DNA of 64,000 bases from Candidatus Limnocylindrales bacterium (GTDB lineage: Bacteria; Moduliflexota; Moduliflexia; Moduliflexales; JAUQPW01). Positions 12,899 through 28,505 of the stretch are shown here, one piece after another. The notes beneath the pieces were generated by a model. It was not told where the DNA came from. It was given only the letters and a program-made list of their open reading frames with translations, and did not search any database. The DNA lies in contig DATMBG010000058.1 of the NCBI GenBank assembly GCA_035559535.1, positions 1 to 64,000 of the forward strand, read 5' to 3'. How positions within the stretch are numbered: position 1 is the stretch's first letter; each line of letters begins with the position of its first letter. The translations under genes were made by a program, and so were the position numbers.

Positions 12899-14818
12899 AT
12901 GGATATAGAAAGATTCGAATGGCTTGAAATACCCGAGGAGAAAAGGGTCAAATCGGAACTGAAAAGAGAAACTCCTGATGTTTCTGCTAAACGATGCCCC
13001 AAGTGTGGCTGGCTTGATCATATCAGTGTGGTAGAATGCTTCCGTTGTGGATATGATTATCAAACCGGCCATCTTTATGCCGATTTTCTGAAAAATCGAA
13101 ATCTGGAGATTCCCGAACCGGTTGTGAAAGTTACCTTGGATTTTAATAGAATTCTCAACAGCCGTCGCGTGGATAGTTATCAAGATTACCTCTTGCGCCT
13201 GCAGGTTGAAGAACACGCCTTAATTAAGGGTTTTGATAAACTTATCTCCCTCTCCAGTTCGAATATCATCCATTATCAACACCAGTTAGATACCGCCCTT
13301 AAGGTGTTAAACCAAATGCGGGGCCAGGCCTTATTAGCCGATGAAGTAGGATTGGGGAAGACCATTGAAGCCGGGATTATCATGAAAGAACTTATGGAGA
13401 GGGGTCTGATCAAAAAGATTCTTATTCTTACGCCGGCTTCTCTGGTCACCCAGTGGCAGGAAGAGCTTTTAACTAAATTCGGAGAAACCTTCATCATTGC
13501 TGAAAATCCAGCCGATTGGAAGGAAGATAAAATTATTGCCTCTTTGTCGAAAGCTCAACGTCCTGAGATAGCCAAACTTATTTACCCCTATAGCTATGAT
13601 CTGTTAATCATTGATGAGGCCCATAAGCTCAAGAGCCGATTTACCCAGCGCTTTAAGTTTGTCAATCAAATTAAGAAAAAATATGTCTTGATGTTGACAG
13701 CAACCCCGGTCCATAACGATCTCACCGAGCTTTATAGTCTGGTTACCATCTTGAAACCGGGGTTATTGGGAACCATACGGGCTTTTAAGAGGCAATATGT
13801 CTCAAAGCAAGACCCCAGGCAGCCCAAGAATGAAGCCAGGTTAAAGAAACTGCTCTCCGAGGTGATGGTTCGAAACCGCCGATCAAGTGTCGGTATTCAG
13901 TTCCCCTCACGTCGGGCGGCCATTTATCATTTTAATCTGACCCCTGAAGAACAGCGCCTCTACCAGGAGGTAACCAATTACATTCGAGAAGAATTCAAAG
14001 CCGAAACCAGAAATCAATACCATTTGCTTTCCCTGACCACCCTACAGAAGGAACTCTGTAGCAGCGCCAGAGCTGTTAAAGCAACCCTTGCAAAAATGGC
14101 AGACCGGGAGCAATATCCCCGAATTACCCGACAGAGATTTCAATTTTTCATGGAGTTGGCCGATAAGATTCGATCTCCTCGTAAAGTGGAAGCCCTACTT
14201 GAAATCATCCATCAATTCAAAGGGAAGTTTGTTATTTTTACGGAGTTCTTGAATACCCTCTTTTATCTTCAAGAAACCTTAGAAACCCACGGGATCTCTA
14301 CCAGGATATTCCACGGTGGTATGAGTCTATCCCAACGTTTAGAAGCCATCCGGGATTTAGAACGATCTGCCCAGGTTTTAATCTCTACCCAGGCCGGTGG
14401 AGAAGGGCTTAATCTCCAGTTTTGTCATCAGATGATTAACTATGATTTACCCTGGAATCCTATGATGGTAGAACAACGTATCGGAAGGTTACATCGTTTA
14501 GGACAAAGTAAAGAGGTTTTAATTTTTAACCTCTCTACCAACGCGACAATTGAAGCCCACATCCTGGAACTCCTGGCTAAAAAGATTCGATTATTTGAAC
14601 TGGTTATCGGTGAGCTGGATTTAATCCTGGGAGCTATGGATGACAAAAGAAGTTTTGAGCAGGTCATAACGGATATCTGGATTTCAAGTCAAAATAATGA
14701 GGAATTAGACCAAAGATTCCAGGAACTGGGAAATAAGATCTTGAAAGCGAGGCAGAAATTTCGTAAGATTAAAGAAGCCGATGCCATCTTATCAGAAATA
14801 TTCGAGCCGGAAATATGA
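12899..14818 (+). CDS. SNF2-family DNA/RNA translocase with N-terminal zinc ribbon
   Basis: A 639-residue protein. An N-terminal zinc ribbon (Cys33, Cys36, Cys47, Cys50) precedes a full SNF2 motor. Walker A is DEVGLGKTIEAG (about 148-159), motif II is IIDEAH (about 236), motif III is LTATPVHN and motif V is STQAGGEGLNLQ (about 496). Motif VI is EQRIGRLHRLGQ (about 525). The motor resembles RapA/HepA-type ATPases that remodel protein-nucleic acid complexes. No nuclease domain is seen. Its stop overlaps the next start by ATGA, so the two products are probably made together and may form a complex. The operon continues with a cysteine-rich protein and DUF1257- and DUF2997-like proteins. The biological role is not known from anything here. 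Confidence 0.9.
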   Translation: MDIERFEWLEIPEEKRVKSELKRETPDVSAKRCPKCGWLDHISVVECFRCGYDYQTGHLYADFLKNRNLEIPEPVVKVTLDFNRILNSRRVDSYQDYLLRLQVEEHALIKGFDKLISLSSSNIIHYQHQLDTALKVLNQMRGQALLADEVGLGKTIEAGIIMKELMERGLIKKILILTPASLVTQWQEELLTKFGETFIIAENPADWKEDKIIASLSKAQRPEIAKLIYPYSYDLLIIDEAHKLKSRFTQRFKFVNQIKKKYVLMLTATPVHNDLTELYSLVTILKPGLLGTIRAFKRQYVSKQDPRQPKNEARLKKLLSEVMVRNRRSSVGIQFPSRRAAIYHFNLTPEEQRLYQEVTNYIREEFKAETRNQYHLLSLTTLQKELCSSARAVKATLAKMADREQYPRITRQRFQFFMELADKIRSPRKVEALLEIIHQFKGKFVIFTEFLNTLFYLQETLETHGISTRIFHGGMSLSQRLEAIRDLERSAQVLISTQAGGEGLNLQFCHQMINYDLPWNPMMVEQRIGRLHRLGQSKEVLIFNLSTNATIEAHILELLAKKIRLFELVIGELDLILGAMDDKRSFEQVITDIWISSQNNEELDQRFQELGNKILKARQKFRKIKEADAILSEIFEPEI

Positions 14819-16488
14819 AAGAGTTCATTGTAGATTTCTTTAAAAGCTACGGAAGCAGAGTTACAGAACAAGATCATGTTCTACGCATTGATTTATCCCC
14901 GGAACTGACTACGTACTTTCAGCGACCTACCCTACAATTGGTTTTTAACTCCCAGTATTTGAGCCCGGAAACTGAACTGGTTACTTATGGAAGTTATATC
15001 TTTAACCAGATCTATGATCTGTTGAAAGATCGTGGGATTAAAACCTTTTTAAAACTTCCCAGGCGGATATCTACTACAAAAAGAACTTCTTTAGAAACTA
15101 TTCAATTCTGTAATGGAGAGCTTGTTGGTAAAAAAACCCAACGGACCTATCAGGTCGATTGGTATTTCAATTTTAAAATAACCTACTGGTTTGATGAAAA
15201 AATAGAGGAAACCTATGCCCTTAAGATAGATTCTCGAGGAGTTATAACCCGATGTCCTGATCCCTTCTCCGAATTATTTTGGATTCAGGGAGAATTAAAC
15301 GGGCAAAAATCTCGACCTCCCTTATCCCGGAACAAAATACGTCAGTTGTATGAGCGATGCCTGACCGAAGTACAGGCCTATGCCCGAGAGCAGAGTATCA
15401 AACTTCAGGAAAAGTTAATGGAGAGGCTCTATAATAATCTTTCTCGTTTGGAGGTTTATTATCGTCAATGTCAGGATGAGGTAACAGGAACCGATGAGAG
15501 ACAGCGAGAAAAAAAACTGGAACTTCTCCAACAAGAATATCGGTTAAAAGTTGAAGAAGAATTAGATAATCATCAAATTCAAATTTTAATATCCCTGATC
15601 AATTTTTGTAGTGTTCAAACCCCTGTTTTGTATCGGCGATTTCTTTTGAGAGCGTATGGTAAGGAAGAGGAACTGGTTTTAGTTAAAAATCTTTTTTCAG
15701 GTAAGGTAGAATACCCGGTCTGTAGTTCCTGTGATACCCAACTTTACATAGCCGGGATGTGTGGACTTGGGGCTCATATAGCCTGTAATAAGTGCCTGGG
15801 TCATTGCCAGGAATGCGATCAAGACGTCTGTTCCAGTTGTGGAATTCATGCCTGTGAGTATTGCCAAATCGATGTTTGCCAGGATTGCAGACGGATTTGT
15901 AATGAGTGTGGCAAGTGGTTTTGTAACCAACATGTCCTGGGATGCCGATTGTGTAAAATCGAATTTTGTGAAACCTGCGCCGAAACTTGTCAGGTCTGTG
16001 GCTGGACGGTATGCGGCAGACATCTTATTCGATGTACCGTCTGTGAGGGAAAAACCTGTTCCCGGTGCAAAACTTCCTGTGCCCATTGTGAAGAAGAGGT
16101 TTGTAATACCCATTTAATTGCCTGCAGCTTTTGTGGACAACTCACCTGCACCCATTGTATAGAGATTTGTGAGACCTGTAGTTGTCAGATTTGTACCCGT
16201 CATGCGTACACCTGTACCCTCAGTAAAAAACGACTTTGTCAGAAAGATTCCGCCCGCTGCCAAAGTTGTTATACAAGGGTTAGTAAAGAATTTATCCGAA
16301 GTTGTGACATTGGCAGTGAAAAAATTTGTGTCCTATGTGCCGAAATTTGCTCGCAGTGTCAATTGCCGTTCTGTTATGAGCATAGGGATGAACTAAAATC
16401 CTGTGGCAGGTGTGGAAAGGCCTATTGCCTGCTCTGTCGAGATCGAAGGAAGGCCTGTCCAACTTGTGAAAGTTTAGAATATGTCTAG
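14815..16488 (+). CDS. Protein with a helical N-terminal half and 54 cysteines in a C-terminal multi-zinc array
   Basis: A 557-residue product unlike any family I recognise. Residues 1-160 are mixed alpha/beta and 175-270 are a charged coiled-coil region. From about residue 302 to the end 54 cysteines follow, in repeats of roughly 20 residues built as CxxC-x4-C-x2-C or CxxC-x4-C-x2-H (for example CNECGKWFCNQH, CQVCGWTVCGRH, CAHCEEEVCNTH). The spacing suggests a chain of RING- or B-box-like zinc knuckles, about a dozen metal sites. It may be a scaffold or nucleic-acid/protein binding partner of the SNF2 motor, with which it overlaps by 4 nt; its stop overlaps the DUF1257 gene by 8 nt. The role is inferred from context only. 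Iron-sulfur binding is an alternative to zinc. Confidence 0.8.
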   Translation: MKEFIVDFFKSYGSRVTEQDHVLRIDLSPELTTYFQRPTLQLVFNSQYLSPETELVTYGSYIFNQIYDLLKDRGIKTFLKLPRRISTTKRTSLETIQFCNGELVGKKTQRTYQVDWYFNFKITYWFDEKIEETYALKIDSRGVITRCPDPFSELFWIQGELNGQKSRPPLSRNKIRQLYERCLTEVQAYAREQSIKLQEKLMERLYNNLSRLEVYYRQCQDEVTGTDERQREKKLELLQQEYRLKVEEELDNHQIQILISLINFCSVQTPVLYRRFLLRAYGKEEELVLVKNLFSGKVEYPVCSSCDTQLYIAGMCGLGAHIACNKCLGHCQECDQDVCSSCGIHACEYCQIDVCQDCRRICNECGKWFCNQHVLGCRLCKIEFCETCAETCQVCGWTVCGRHLIRCTVCEGKTCSRCKTSCAHCEEEVCNTHLIACSFCGQLTCTHCIEICETCSCQICTRHAYTCTLSKKRLCQKDSARCQSCYTRVSKEFIRSCDIGSEKICVLCAEICSQCQLPFCYEHRDELKSCGRCGKAYCLLCRDRRKACPTCESLEYV

Positions 16489-16846
16489 ATTTGTATCCAT
16501 TAAAACTGAATTACGAGATGGGGATATCCTGAAGGAGAGCTTACGGGAGTTAAAATGTACCGTAATCCCTCAAACAGAAATGACCCTGTACGCAAAAACA
16601 CAACCCATTAGCTTCCTATCTGTAACCCCTTTTGGAAGGGTTGGATTCAGGATCAATGATCAGGGTCAGTATGAAATGGTGGGAGATGAAGAAGTCCTCA
16701 AGAAACAAGGAAACTTCCTGGATAGATTAACCCAACGATATGCCTATAATAAAGTAGTTAAGGAAGCTAAAAAAGCTGGATTTTCCTTCATAAAAGAGGA
16801 GGTTATGGAAGACAATAGCATTCGGGTTGTCATTCGCAAATGGTAA
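16481..16846 (+). CDS. DUF1257/Ycf35-like protein
   Basis: A 121-residue protein starting MSRFVSIKTELRDGDILKES, close to the MSHFxxIKTxIKDxxxL opening of DUF1257 (Ycf35 of plastids and cyanobacteria). The middle part (VGFRINDQGQYEMVGD) and the end (YAYNKVVKEAKKAGF) also fit that family. Its function is unknown; the family is commonly encoded next to a DUF2997 gene, as here. The start overlaps the upstream gene by 8 nt and the next gene begins 1 nt after its stop. Confidence 0.75.
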   Translation: MSRFVSIKTELRDGDILKESLRELKCTVIPQTEMTLYAKTQPISFLSVTPFGRVGFRINDQGQYEMVGDEEVLKKQGNFLDRLTQRYAYNKVVKEAKKAGFSFIKEEVMEDNSIRVVIRKW

Positions 16847-16847
16847 T

Positions 16848-17042
16848 ATGGAAAAAAAAGAGATCGAATTTATTATAAAACCCAATGGGGAGGTGGAATT
16901 TACCGTTAAAGGGGTCAAAGGAAAAAAGTGTGTGCCTCTGGCAGATCTGTTTAAAACCCTGGGAGAAATAACAAATGCCAGGAATACCTCGGAGTATTAC
17001 GAAGAGGATAAAGAAGATAAGGTAAAAACCTATAAATTCTAA
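16848..17042 (+). CDS. DUF2997-like small protein
   Basis: A 64-residue acidic protein with the opening IEFIIKPNGEVEFTVKGVKG, a cysteine at KKCVPL and an end with TSEYYEEDKED. This matches the DUF2997 layout (IxIxPDGxVxxxVxGxxGxxC). ATG 16848 directly follows the DUF1257 stop (TAATATG), so coupling is very tight. The pair DUF1257-DUF2997 usually travels with an AAA ATPase and a ferredoxin in cyanobacteria. Here an SNF2 motor and a cysteine-rich protein occupy the same operon. Function unknown. Confidence 0.7.
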   Translation: MEKKEIEFIIKPNGEVEFTVKGVKGKKCVPLADLFKTLGEITNARNTSEYYEEDKEDKVKTYKF

Positions 17043-19316: not shown

Positions 19317-19318
19317 GG

Positions 19319-19425
19319 GGAGTATGGGAGTATGGGAGTGTGGGAGTGTGGGAGTACGGGCGTGTGGGGGAATTTACCCCCCTTACCTCCATACTCCTAT
19401 ACGCTCATGCCCCCATACCTTCTAT
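19319..19425. repeat. Hairpin minisatellite with 8-nt words
   Basis: The left arm has octamers GGAGTATG, GGAGTGTG, GGAGTGTG, GGAGTACG, GGCGTGTG. The right arm carries degenerate complements (CCCCTTACCTCCATACTCCTATACGC is the type, here across 19378-19420). The whole element fills the gap between coaX and birA. Confidence 0.7.
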
Positions 19426-25934: not shown

Positions 25935-28505
25935 CTACCGGGAGAGAGTAACCGGGGATTGGAGAAGCTTTTGAACGCTCTCCAGTAATTTCCTGTCATC
26001 AAAAGGTTTAACCAGATAATCATTAGCTCCCAGGGCGATAGCTTTCTGATAGTGTTTTTCTCCGGCTCGGGAGGTCAAAACGATAATGGGAAGGTCTTGG
26101 AGCTCGGGTTTACTACGAACCTTTGCAATAAGCTCATAGCCATGCATTTTGGGCATCTCCAGATCGGTAATCAGTAAGTCGAACCGATGGGGCGAATTTA
26201 ATTTGTTCCAGGCTTCCAGACCATCATGGGCTACCTGAACGGTATATCCTGCTTGATTTAAGAAATGGCTGACCACCTTTCGAATGCTGATAGAATCATC
26301 GGCAATCAACACTTCAGGAATATGTTCATGGGAATCGGGCAGTACTTCCTCGTGTTCTTCGATTTCCCCTTTACCTTCTTTTATTTCTGGCTCATTACCC
26401 ACGATCCAGGGTCTGGCCTCTTCGGCTTGCCCTGCTACGGTTTCCAGGATATAAGAAGCATCTAGGATTAATCGAACGGCTCCTTCTCCAGAAATCGTGG
26501 CCCCAGAGAACATGCGAGCCCTTTTAAGATAATCTCCTAAAGGTTTGATGACGATCAGTTGTTGACCGATCAGCTCATCTACTTTTACAGCAATTTTTCT
26601 TTCCACAGAACCCAGGATAATCACCGGCAGATAAGGTGATTTGGAAGACCCTTCCGGAAGGGGGGGTTCTACTTCTGAAAGTTGGAGAAGTTTATTTAGC
26701 CGGATAAAGGTTAAAATTTGATCCCTTATTCGAATGACCTCCTGGCCTGTAACCACATGGATTTGGTTGGGAGTGACGCGAAGCGTTTCTTCCACGGAAT
26801 TGAGAGGGATCGCAAATTCTTGGCCACCCACCCGGACTAAAAGGGCCTGATAAATAATCAGGGTCAGGGGTAGCTTGATCACAAAGAGGGTTCCCTTTCC
26901 CGGCTCCGATTTAATATCTATAGAACCTCCCAGCTTGGTAAGATTCGTTTTCACCACATCCATCCCAACCCCTCTTCCGGATACACTGGTTACTTTCTCC
27001 TTGGTAGAAAATCCTGGAAGAAATATAAGTTGATAGGTCTCTGGATCACTTAATCGATCTACTTCTGCTTGAGATTTTATACCTTTTTTTACAGCCGTTT
27101 CTCGTAGCTTTTGGGGGTTCATCCCTGCGCCATCATCACGAATTTCAATGATAATCTGACTCCCCTGTTGATAAGCATTTAAAGAAATAGTTCCTACTCT
27201 AGGCTTACCCAATTTCTCCCGTACATCCGGGGGTTCAATTCCATGGGAAACTGCATTTCGAACCAGGTGCATGAGAGGATCTGCCATTTCTTCGATCACG
27301 GTTTTATCTAATCGGGTCTCTTCCCCTGCAGTAATAAGTACCACTTCTTTTCCCTCTTCCTTGGATACATCCCGGACCGGTCTGTGAAATCGATTAAAAA
27401 GATTGCTCACCGGAACCATTCGAATATTGGTAAGTCCTTCTTGTAGCTGCTCGGTGGTACTGCGGACCTGGGAAGATTCTACCTCAAAGGCTTCAAAAAA
27501 ATTATTGAGCTGGTCAATAATTTCTGAAATATCGGAACCTATCTCGATCAAACTTCGAGATAAGATATTAAAATCATCATACTTATCAAACTCTAGTTCA
27601 GAAAACCCATTTAACAGGTCTTCTGGATGGGGGGAGGTGGGGAGGTGGGGGCTGAGAGATGGGGGGGAATGTCTCTGTGTCTCCGCGTCTCCATGTCTCC
27701 GCGTCTCCGTGTCTCCGCGTCTCCATGTCTCCGCGTCTCCATTTGGGTCCCTGAACAGGCTATATTCATATTTTTCTTTGAAATCCCGTATTACTTTAAG
27801 TAATTTCGCCTTACTGAAATTGAGTTCTGTACTCACCTTATTGAGGTAGCTAATGTGCTGATCGAGCCGGTTCTGATTAATCACCAGGGCCCCCACCAGG
27901 TTCATCAGTTTATTCAGGTCATTGATATTGACCTTAGCAAATTGTTTCTCGCTGGGTGCGACCAGGGATTTGGACGTTGGGGCAGATTTCGAATCTGTTT
28001 GGGTTTTTAGCTCGGAGGGGGGAATTTCTACTTTTAGCTCCGGCTTTGAGGTTTGTACTTTTTTAACAAAGGTGGAGGGTTTTACCTCAACAGGGGTACC
28101 GGTACCGAGATCCGATTCCAAAAATTCCCGATACTGGTCTTCAAACATAGGAATCAAGGAATCATCCTCTCCGGTTCCATTTGAGATATTCTCCACCTGA
28201 CTTGCCAGGGCATCAATGGATTGTAGAAGTAGCGTAATGACCGGCTCCGTAGGTTTGATCTCCTGGCTTCGAATCTTCCCTAACAGGTCCTCCATCTTGT
28301 GAGCCAGCTTACTGACCACATTAAATCCCAGCATTGCGGCAGATCCTTTAATGGTGTGGGCGGATCGGAAGATCTCATCCACAATGCCTATATTTTCACT
28401 GTTTGCCTCCAGGGCCAGAAGTCCATCATTGATTACCTGGATGTGTTCTCCAGCTTCAACCAAAAATATCTCGGCTATCTCGGATTTGTTAAGTCCTTGG
28501 GTCAT
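25935..28505 (-). CDS. cheA: Hybrid chemotaxis histidine kinase CheA with C-terminal receiver (FrzE/PilL-like)
   Basis: An 856-residue protein. The Hpt domain is about 1-110 with the phospho-acceptor His50 in RSAHTIKGSAAMLG. A dimerisation/MRM segment starts near 195. The ATPase has LVRNAVSHGIEP, DDGAGMNP and GRGVGMDVVK. A CheW-like domain follows (QALLVRVGGQEFAIPLNS), then a receiver from about 735 (VLIADDSISIRKV, LLITDLEMPKMHG, YLVKPFDDRK). Residues about 255-295 in the dimerisation region are encoded by an in-frame octamer minisatellite and read as Gly-Asp-Ala-Glu-Thr/Arg-Arg-His repeats. The hybrid layout is typical of alternative or type IV pilus chemosensory systems. No P2 CheY-binding domain is evident. 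Confidence 0.93.
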   Translation of the reverse strand: MTQGLNKSEIAEIFLVEAGEHIQVINDGLLALEANSENIGIVDEIFRSAHTIKGSAAMLGFNVVSKLAHKMEDLLGKIRSQEIKPTEPVITLLLQSIDALASQVENISNGTGEDDSLIPMFEDQYREFLESDLGTGTPVEVKPSTFVKKVQTSKPELKVEIPPSELKTQTDSKSAPTSKSLVAPSEKQFAKVNINDLNKLMNLVGALVINQNRLDQHISYLNKVSTELNFSKAKLLKVIRDFKEKYEYSLFRDPNGDAETWRRGDTETRRHGDAETQRHSPPSLSPHLPTSPHPEDLLNGFSELEFDKYDDFNILSRSLIEIGSDISEIIDQLNNFFEAFEVESSQVRSTTEQLQEGLTNIRMVPVSNLFNRFHRPVRDVSKEEGKEVVLITAGEETRLDKTVIEEMADPLMHLVRNAVSHGIEPPDVREKLGKPRVGTISLNAYQQGSQIIIEIRDDGAGMNPQKLRETAVKKGIKSQAEVDRLSDPETYQLIFLPGFSTKEKVTSVSGRGVGMDVVKTNLTKLGGSIDIKSEPGKGTLFVIKLPLTLIIYQALLVRVGGQEFAIPLNSVEETLRVTPNQIHVVTGQEVIRIRDQILTFIRLNKLLQLSEVEPPLPEGSSKSPYLPVIILGSVERKIAVKVDELIGQQLIVIKPLGDYLKRARMFSGATISGEGAVRLILDASYILETVAGQAEEARPWIVGNEPEIKEGKGEIEEHEEVLPDSHEHIPEVLIADDSISIRKVVSHFLNQAGYTVQVAHDGLEAWNKLNSPHRFDLLITDLEMPKMHGYELIAKVRSKPELQDLPIIVLTSRAGEKHYQKAIALGANDYLVKPFDDRKLLESVQKLLQSPVTLSR
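27625..27742. repeat. Octamer minisatellite inserted in frame in cheA
   Basis: Positions 27671-27742 are exactly nine octamers of the GTCTCCGC/GTCTCCAT/GTCTCTGT type (72 nt, 24 codons). A G-rich partner tract (27628-27668) lies to the left and can pair imperfectly with the C-rich octamers. The reading frame of cheA is kept. The flanking protein sequence (EYSLF and GFSELEFDKYDDFN) looks like continuous kinase sequence in relatives. Confidence 0.85.

Follow-up and report, generated by a model that had tools for sequence, protein, structure and literature searches.

A conserved operon of candidate division KSB3 joins a RapA-like SNF2 motor and its zinc-array partner to DUF1257 and DUF2997 genes

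RapA (HepA) recycles RNA polymerase and is a single chain, the N-terminal domain of which contacts polymerase in solved complexes (PMC8666675). In Bacillus subtilis, the corresponding SNF2 protein YqhH is called HepA/RapA, is listed among the helicases interacting with RNA polymerase (PMC7385302), and is encoded in a coupled pair with YqhG (PF11079); YqhH of B. thuringiensis is an ATPase and helicase that unwinds DNA, and its deletion confers sensitivity to ultraviolet light (PMC10054049). BrxHII of type 3 BREX, a single chain encoded in a defence locus, has been described as parallel to RapA in its layout, down to the alpha+beta domains at the C terminus (PMC12839542). A different set of genes has been described from cyanobacteria and plastids: in Synechocystis, Ycf35 (DUF1257) lies with DUF2997 and a ferredoxin (PMC4284462), and in red-algal plastids ycf35 and ycf46 have undergone similar habitat-linked losses (PMC5940233). 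Here, we analyse a four-gene operon that brings both sets together at positions 12899-17042 of a 64,000-nucleotide stretch (the window; contig DATMBG010000058.1 of assembly GCA_035559535.1, deposited as a Candidatus Limnocylindrales bacterium).

The motor gene and its cysteine-rich partner

The operon consists of four co-directional open reading frames (ORFs) on the + strand, which encode an SNF2 motor (SNF2), a cysteine-rich protein (CYS), a DUF1257 protein and a DUF2997 protein (Table 1). SNF2 and CYS overlap by 4 nt, CYS and DUF1257 by 8 nt, and a 1-nt gap separates DUF1257 from DUF2997; re-reading of the ORFs confirmed these junctions and all coordinates given in a first-pass annotation of the same DNA. 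The relatives of the source organism belong to candidate division KSB3/Modulibacteria (UASB270, DOLJORAL78), filaments known from bulking in wastewater (PMC4312070). The order SNF2-CYS-DUF1257-DUF2997 is kept in all four sampled KSB3 genomes (the window's own assembly, G001, G002 and G003), as would be expected of the conserved operon that had been proposed; the exact overlap lengths are not kept across G001, G002 and G003. Between KSB3 families, gene order persists at 33-60% identity (33% for CYS, 57-59% for SNF2), and comparison with the same-genus genome G001 gave, for all four genes, 0.014-0.033 nonsynonymous (dN) and 0.21-0.23 synonymous (dS) substitutions per site, with dN/dS below 0.2. 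The combination is real and conserved, and each of its parts belongs to a known kind, the whole being a variant of YqhH-YqhG/RapA. The open-access literature that was searched contained no description of this four-gene composition, in agreement with the earlier impression that no such system had been described.

We propose that the operon may encode a split RapA/HepA-type SNF2 translocase together with two adaptors of the Ycf35 system, and that it would clear or recycle stalled RNA polymerase; in our judgement, this proposal as a whole has an even chance of being correct. The assignment of the first gene to a zinc-ribbon SNF2 motor stands, with both Pfam domains and all expected motifs in place (Table 1), although Pfam Zn_ribbon_3 itself matched the ribbon at 0.017. 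The ATPase motifs and the similarity of the SNF2 lobes to those of E. coli RapA (29% identity, E=1e-37) are those expected of a RapA/HepA-type protein. A quick tree placed the window SNF2 in a clade of nine proteins with a Shimodaira-Hasegawa-like approximate likelihood ratio (SH-aLRT) support of 99, and all nine have the zinc ribbon and a zinc-array partner encoded in the same genome.

This partner, CYS, contains 59 cysteines, 54 of which lie within residues 297-557, where approximately 26-30 CxxC/CxxH knuckles follow one another at spacings of mostly 7 and 8 residues in alternation. If each site uses four ligands, the array would hold about 13 zinc sites. Alignment of 13 CYS homologues revealed 32 invariant columns, 21 of which are array cysteines; the array is therefore not a product of chance. 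In the AlphaFold2 model, which has a mean predicted local distance difference test (pLDDT) score of 86, a helical hairpin is followed by an ordered knuckle array with values mostly near 90. The whole window protein has no meaningful Pfam match, and its profile found, among PDB sequences, RING/FYVE-type zinc fingers and similar alone, at E-values of 0.01 or worse. The array had been recognized in the first-pass annotation, which missed the YqhG-type domain in front of it. This domain became apparent from comparison with few-cysteine YqhG-like proteins (hhalign probability 100%, E=3e-42, 352 columns), a match that rules out an orphan zinc protein. The YqhG family PF11079 was not reached by the window CYS and was weakly matched by two of eight homologues (best value 0.0018), and direct comparison with Bacillus-type YqhG was weak (probability 51%). 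Because the homology is indirect, via the few-cysteine YqhG-like proteins, CYS should be regarded as a distant YqhG relative rather than a member of the Pfam family. The 4-nt overlap also agrees with the hallmark of the YqhH-YqhG pair, i.e., a partner coupled downstream of the motor in the same order. It is thus well supported that CYS is a zinc-expanded YqhG-type subunit paired with the SNF2 motor; compared with YqhH-YqhG, the operon adds the zinc ribbon of SNF2, a zinc array of ~260 residues on the partner and the DUF1257-DUF2997 pair. Several CYS homologues, and the haloarchaeal ones as well, end in an additional segment beyond the array that seems to be common to them (L102:7719-9716, L103:1709-3706, L168:8354-10363 and L167:8146-9870); the KSB3 proteins do not have it.

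A relationship of the YqhG-type domain to RapA is suggested by both fold and sequence. The two best Foldseek matches of the CYS model in the PDB are both RapA (E=2.6e-5 and 3.6e-5), and a merged profile of CYS N-domains and few-cysteine partners matched an alignment of the RapA C-terminal region with a score of 43 (E=4e-5, 232 columns), compared with at most 20 in 60 column shuffles, 20 for the reversed alignment and 13 for an SNF2 alignment. The CYS profile alone reached scores of 21-25 against RapA_C, barely above the shuffles and not significant; it found no significant match in the single E. coli RapA sequence, and Pfam RapA_C (PF12137) was not matched in any KSB3 genome. The YqhG-type domain of CYS thus appears to be a remote relative of the RapA C-terminal region on a second chain. 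Since the SNF2 lobes align with RapA and the merged N-domain profile matches the RapA C-terminal region, the two proteins together look like a RapA-type motor in two chains, and the view that SNF2 and CYS are a RapA-like translocase split in two and extended by a zinc array is supported by sequence and fold. On this view, YqhG can be understood as the C-terminal part of such a motor that has become detached.

Table 1. Features of the operon in the window; residue numbers refer to the encoded protein
Feature	Coordinates	Strand	Evidence
SNF2 translocase, YqhH/HepA type, 639 aa, N-terminal zinc ribbon	12899..14818	+	Pfam SNF2-rel_dom 6e-35, Helicase_C 4e-24
Zinc ribbon CPKC-x10-CFRC of SNF2, residues 33-50 (CPKC 33-36, CFRC 47-50)	12995..13048	+	pattern in 9/9 clade members
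Walker A DEVGLGKT of SNF2, residues 148-155	13340..13363	+	invariant in 13 homologues
DEAH box of SNF2, residues 239-242	13613..13624	+	motif present
CYS gene, downstream of SNF2	14815-16488	+
YqhG-type domain of CYS, residues 1-296, long helical hairpin (H172-222, H228-252)	14815..15702	+
CxxC/CxxH knuckle array of CYS, residues 297-557, 54 Cys	15703..16485	+
DUF1257 (Ycf35) protein, 121 aa	16481..16846	+	PF06868 5e-16, 59.2 bits vs cut-off 22.2
DUF2997 protein, 64 aa, ATG at 16848	16848..17042	+	PF11211 2e-11, 44.3 bits vs cut-off 24.1

The probable link with Ycf35, Ycf46 and DUF2997

The main interest of the locus lies in its link to the orphan Ycf35, Ycf46 and DUF2997 proteins. It ties together YqhG, DUF1257, DUF2997 and Ycf46, none of which has an assigned biochemical role in the literature found, and the fact that genes which cyanobacteria and red-algal plastids have retained share an operon with this motor is a first functional hint for these orphans. 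The assignment of the two small proteins to DUF1257 and DUF2997 was upheld by profile search, in which both scored above the curated cut-offs (Table 1). DUF2997 lies beside DUF1257 or within ~1 kb of it in 10 of 10 loci scanned, and one cysteine of the DUF2997 protein, C28, is invariant in 12 homologues. The AlphaFold2 model of the DUF1257 protein has a pLDDT of 89; its best PDB fold match, the TrwC relaxase (E=7.5e-3), was not trusted, and the sequence profiles of DUF1257 and DUF2997 found no match in the PDB. In two genomes of different families (L104:7679-11983 and L105:6301-11755), a gene cluster comprises a Ycf46 AAA gene and the genes for DUF1257, a tetratricopeptide repeat (TPR) protein, DUF2997 and a PilT-like ATPase.

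The first-pass annotation had assumed that the SNF2 motor took the slot of the AAA ATPase that usually accompanies DUF1257. This is unsupported, because G001, G002 and G003 keep a Ycf46-type AAA gene apart from the operon, which rules out a replacement; moreover, Ycf46 is part of the SNF2-CYS operon of G123 (Ycf46-SNF2-CYS, joined by 4-nt overlaps). In G260, Ycf46, SNF2 and CYS are adjacent, and Ycf46-type genes adjoin DUF1257 in seven other genomes (G050, G166, G197, G225, G267, G278 and G328). The locus resembles the cyanobacterial and plastid system in that DUF1257 and DUF2997 are paired and Ycf46 is encoded in the genomes of relatives, whereas it differs in that the pair is joined to the SNF2 operon, Ycf46 is unlinked in KSB3, and no ferredoxin gene adjoins the operon. 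The last point bears on the idea that the zinc array stores metal or acts as a redox switch and that, through the operon, transcription responds to metal or redox state. The approximately 13 sites of the array would suit such a role, as would the ferredoxin gene next to DUF2997-ycf35 in cyanobacteria (PMC4284462; also locus L098) and the finding that red algae have lost ycf34, ycf35 and ycf46 in a pattern that follows habitat, which the authors tied to iron (PMC5940233). However, in the ordered knuckle array of the model, zinc would be structural, and with no ferredoxin gene seen beside the operon, we consider this idea highly improbable.

Co-occurrence was assessed in a sample of 385 diverse genomes, with thresholds set after the matches were known (zinc-ribbon SNF2, E<1e-200 or a split match in G002; CYS, E up to ~1e-100; Ycf46, E<1e-60); weaker CYS and SNF2 matches belong to another, few-cysteine clade. 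The zinc-ribbon SNF2 was found in 10 genomes from four lineages, and the zinc-array CYS in exactly the same 10. DUF1257 is present in 17 genomes, namely, 8 of the 10 with SNF2-CYS versus 9 of the 375 others, and 62 genomes carry a Ycf46-type AAA gene, among them 9 of the 10 SNF2-CYS genomes and 15 of the 17 with DUF1257. Fisher tests, which ignore phylogeny, gave p values of 6e-20 for SNF2-CYS, 9e-11 for SNF2-DUF1257 and 3e-11 for DUF1257-Ycf46; collapsed to lineages, the values were 6e-9, 2e-4 and 1e-7, respectively. The anticipated co-occurrence in other genomes is thus complete for SNF2 and CYS, and for DUF1257 it extends to 8 of the 10. SNF2 and CYS are not adjacent in G056, G202, G246 and G333, where SNF2 and DUF1257-DUF2997 are found elsewhere in the same genome. 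The occurrence of CYS without the other three had been named as grounds for abandoning a common system; CYS does stand apart in these four genomes, yet the others are encoded in the same genome. Because SNF2, CYS and DUF1257 are not neighbours there, linkage does not account for their co-occurrence, and the expected link between this SNF2 type and DUF1257 reaches beyond adjacency. Immediately after the SNF2 gene of G056, in the same orientation, comes a gene for a PorX-type protein with a response regulator and a PglZ domain (L089:7119-10762).

Several observations weigh against a single RapA-like motor-adaptor system. The RapA N-terminal domain was not found: SNF2 shows no alignment to RapA ahead of residue 128, and this stretch contains the zinc ribbon instead, and the Foldseek matches of CYS to RapA have low template modelling scores (TM-scores, 0.17-0.19). 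The window's own assembly, which is 95.8% complete, yielded no clear Ycf46 copy; the Ycf46 gene of the same-genus genome G001 sits near a contig end. The DUF1257 link rests on few lineages (three of four; lineage-level p=2e-4). G123 and G260 have SNF2-CYS with no DUF1257 detected in assemblies that are 83-84% complete, and widening of this test within the class of G123 returned only the same two genomes. Finally, no such SNF2 was found at E<1e-60 in the three cyanobacteria of the sample that have Ycf35, Ycf46 and DUF2997. The last three genomes, together with G123 and G260 and the four genomes in which SNF2-CYS and DUF1257-DUF2997 lie apart, are what would be expected if SNF2-CYS had one job and the DUF1257-DUF2997 pair of the Ycf35/Ycf46 system were merely on the same KSB3 transcript. 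Such a pair of unrelated units is rather unlikely in view of the enrichment of DUF1257 in SNF2-CYS genomes, the gene order kept between diverged KSB3 families, and the position of Ycf46 inside the G123 operon and next to SNF2 in G260. A functional link of the motor to Ycf35, Ycf46 and DUF2997 is probable.

In the proposed mechanism, SNF2 and the YqhG-type N-domain of CYS would form one motor, to which CYS supplies the RapA-like C-terminal region; this step is well supported. The array, which presumably binds zinc, might serve as a contact arm for nucleic acid or RNA polymerase. Driven by ATP, the motor would travel along duplex DNA, where it would displace or recycle stalled RNA polymerase or other obstacles, mainly after damage. 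DUF1257 and DUF2997, probably linked to the motor, could act with the separately encoded Ycf46 to load, remodel or regulate it. The more general notion that Ycf46, Ycf35 and DUF2997 constitute an adaptor, powered by the AAA ATPase, for loading or remodelling a split RapA-like translocase with a zinc arm is tentative, with the balance of probability leaning against it. If true, one half of the adaptor-motor link would be visible in the KSB3 operon and the other in that of G123. Ycf35 and Ycf46, orphan proteins of plastids, would then belong to a machine for transcription or DNA maintenance and would not be photosynthesis factors.

Origin of the array, possible defence relatives and other features of the window

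In weaker SNF2 relatives (~35-47% identity), the motor gene is frequently coupled to a gene downstream of it. In L109 and L111, which are examples of the intact pair, this gene is YqhG itself (PF11079, E=2e-46 and 7e-50); other coupled partners are YqhG-like with one small cysteine cluster, and that of L115 has 39 cysteines. YqhG-like genes coupled to SNF2 occur in numerous bacteria as well as on cyanobacterial and haloarchaeal plasmids. Haloarchaeal plasmids also encode zinc arrays (115 cysteines in Halorhabdus, 44 in Halocatena), and these are associated with a separate branch of the SNF2 tree, in which the long branches L115, L118 and RapA are themselves unsurely placed. The distribution of arrays on this tree needs three changes, at least two of which are forced by well-supported branches. 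On this tree, the haloarchaeal array has an origin of its own, and long arrays evolved repeatedly on one and the same motor subunit.

The haloarchaeal system of L200 and L201 resembles that of the window in that a YqhG-type domain precedes an array of up to 115 cysteines, but it has a nuclease where the window has DUF1257-DUF2997. At three plasmid loci (L200:4052-10088, L201:3922-8450 and L202:3557-9986), SNF2, the zinc-array partner and an Mrr_cat nuclease stand in a row, forming a candidate defence module; the partner has 1095 aa in Halorhabdus, and in Haloferax it is not annotated as one intact gene. A near-identical pair of SNF2 and a 346-aa YqhG-like protein with 3-4 cysteines is found on mobilizable plasmids of cyanobacteria (L203:4950-7719, L204:4074-6843 and L209:4938-7707), and on two of these it adjoins partition and toxin-antitoxin genes.

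These plasmid loci favour a view in which the operon is an SNF2-based anti-phage module, comparable to those with BREX, DISARM or Dpd helicases, and the zinc array senses foreign nucleic acid. The nearest PADLOC and NCBIfam resemblances of the motor, to BrxHI/BrxHII, DrmD and DpdE, point in the same direction. However, DrmD (275 of 950 bits) and DpdE (209 of 500) scored far under the NCBIfam cut-offs, and for the PADLOC BrxHI profile (278 bits), PADLOC states no cut-off. Unlike BrxHII, the window motor is accompanied by no other BREX genes, and the operon includes neither a nuclease nor a methylase gene. Its neighbours are housekeeping genes (RsmI-like methylase, pantothenate kinase, biotin ligase and ValS) and thus weigh against a defence island, and its presence in all four KSB3 genomes contrasts with the usually patchy distribution of defence genes. 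Defence is therefore quite unlikely for the window operon, whereas for the haloarchaeal branch the Mrr_cat nuclease keeps such a role open.

Elsewhere in the window, a 5S rRNA gene lies near the start, at positions 74-190 (Rfam RF00001, 113 bits), and short tandem arrays with units of 8 and 16 bases are found at 27670-27742 and 19318-19368 (TGTCTCCG; GGGAGTAT).

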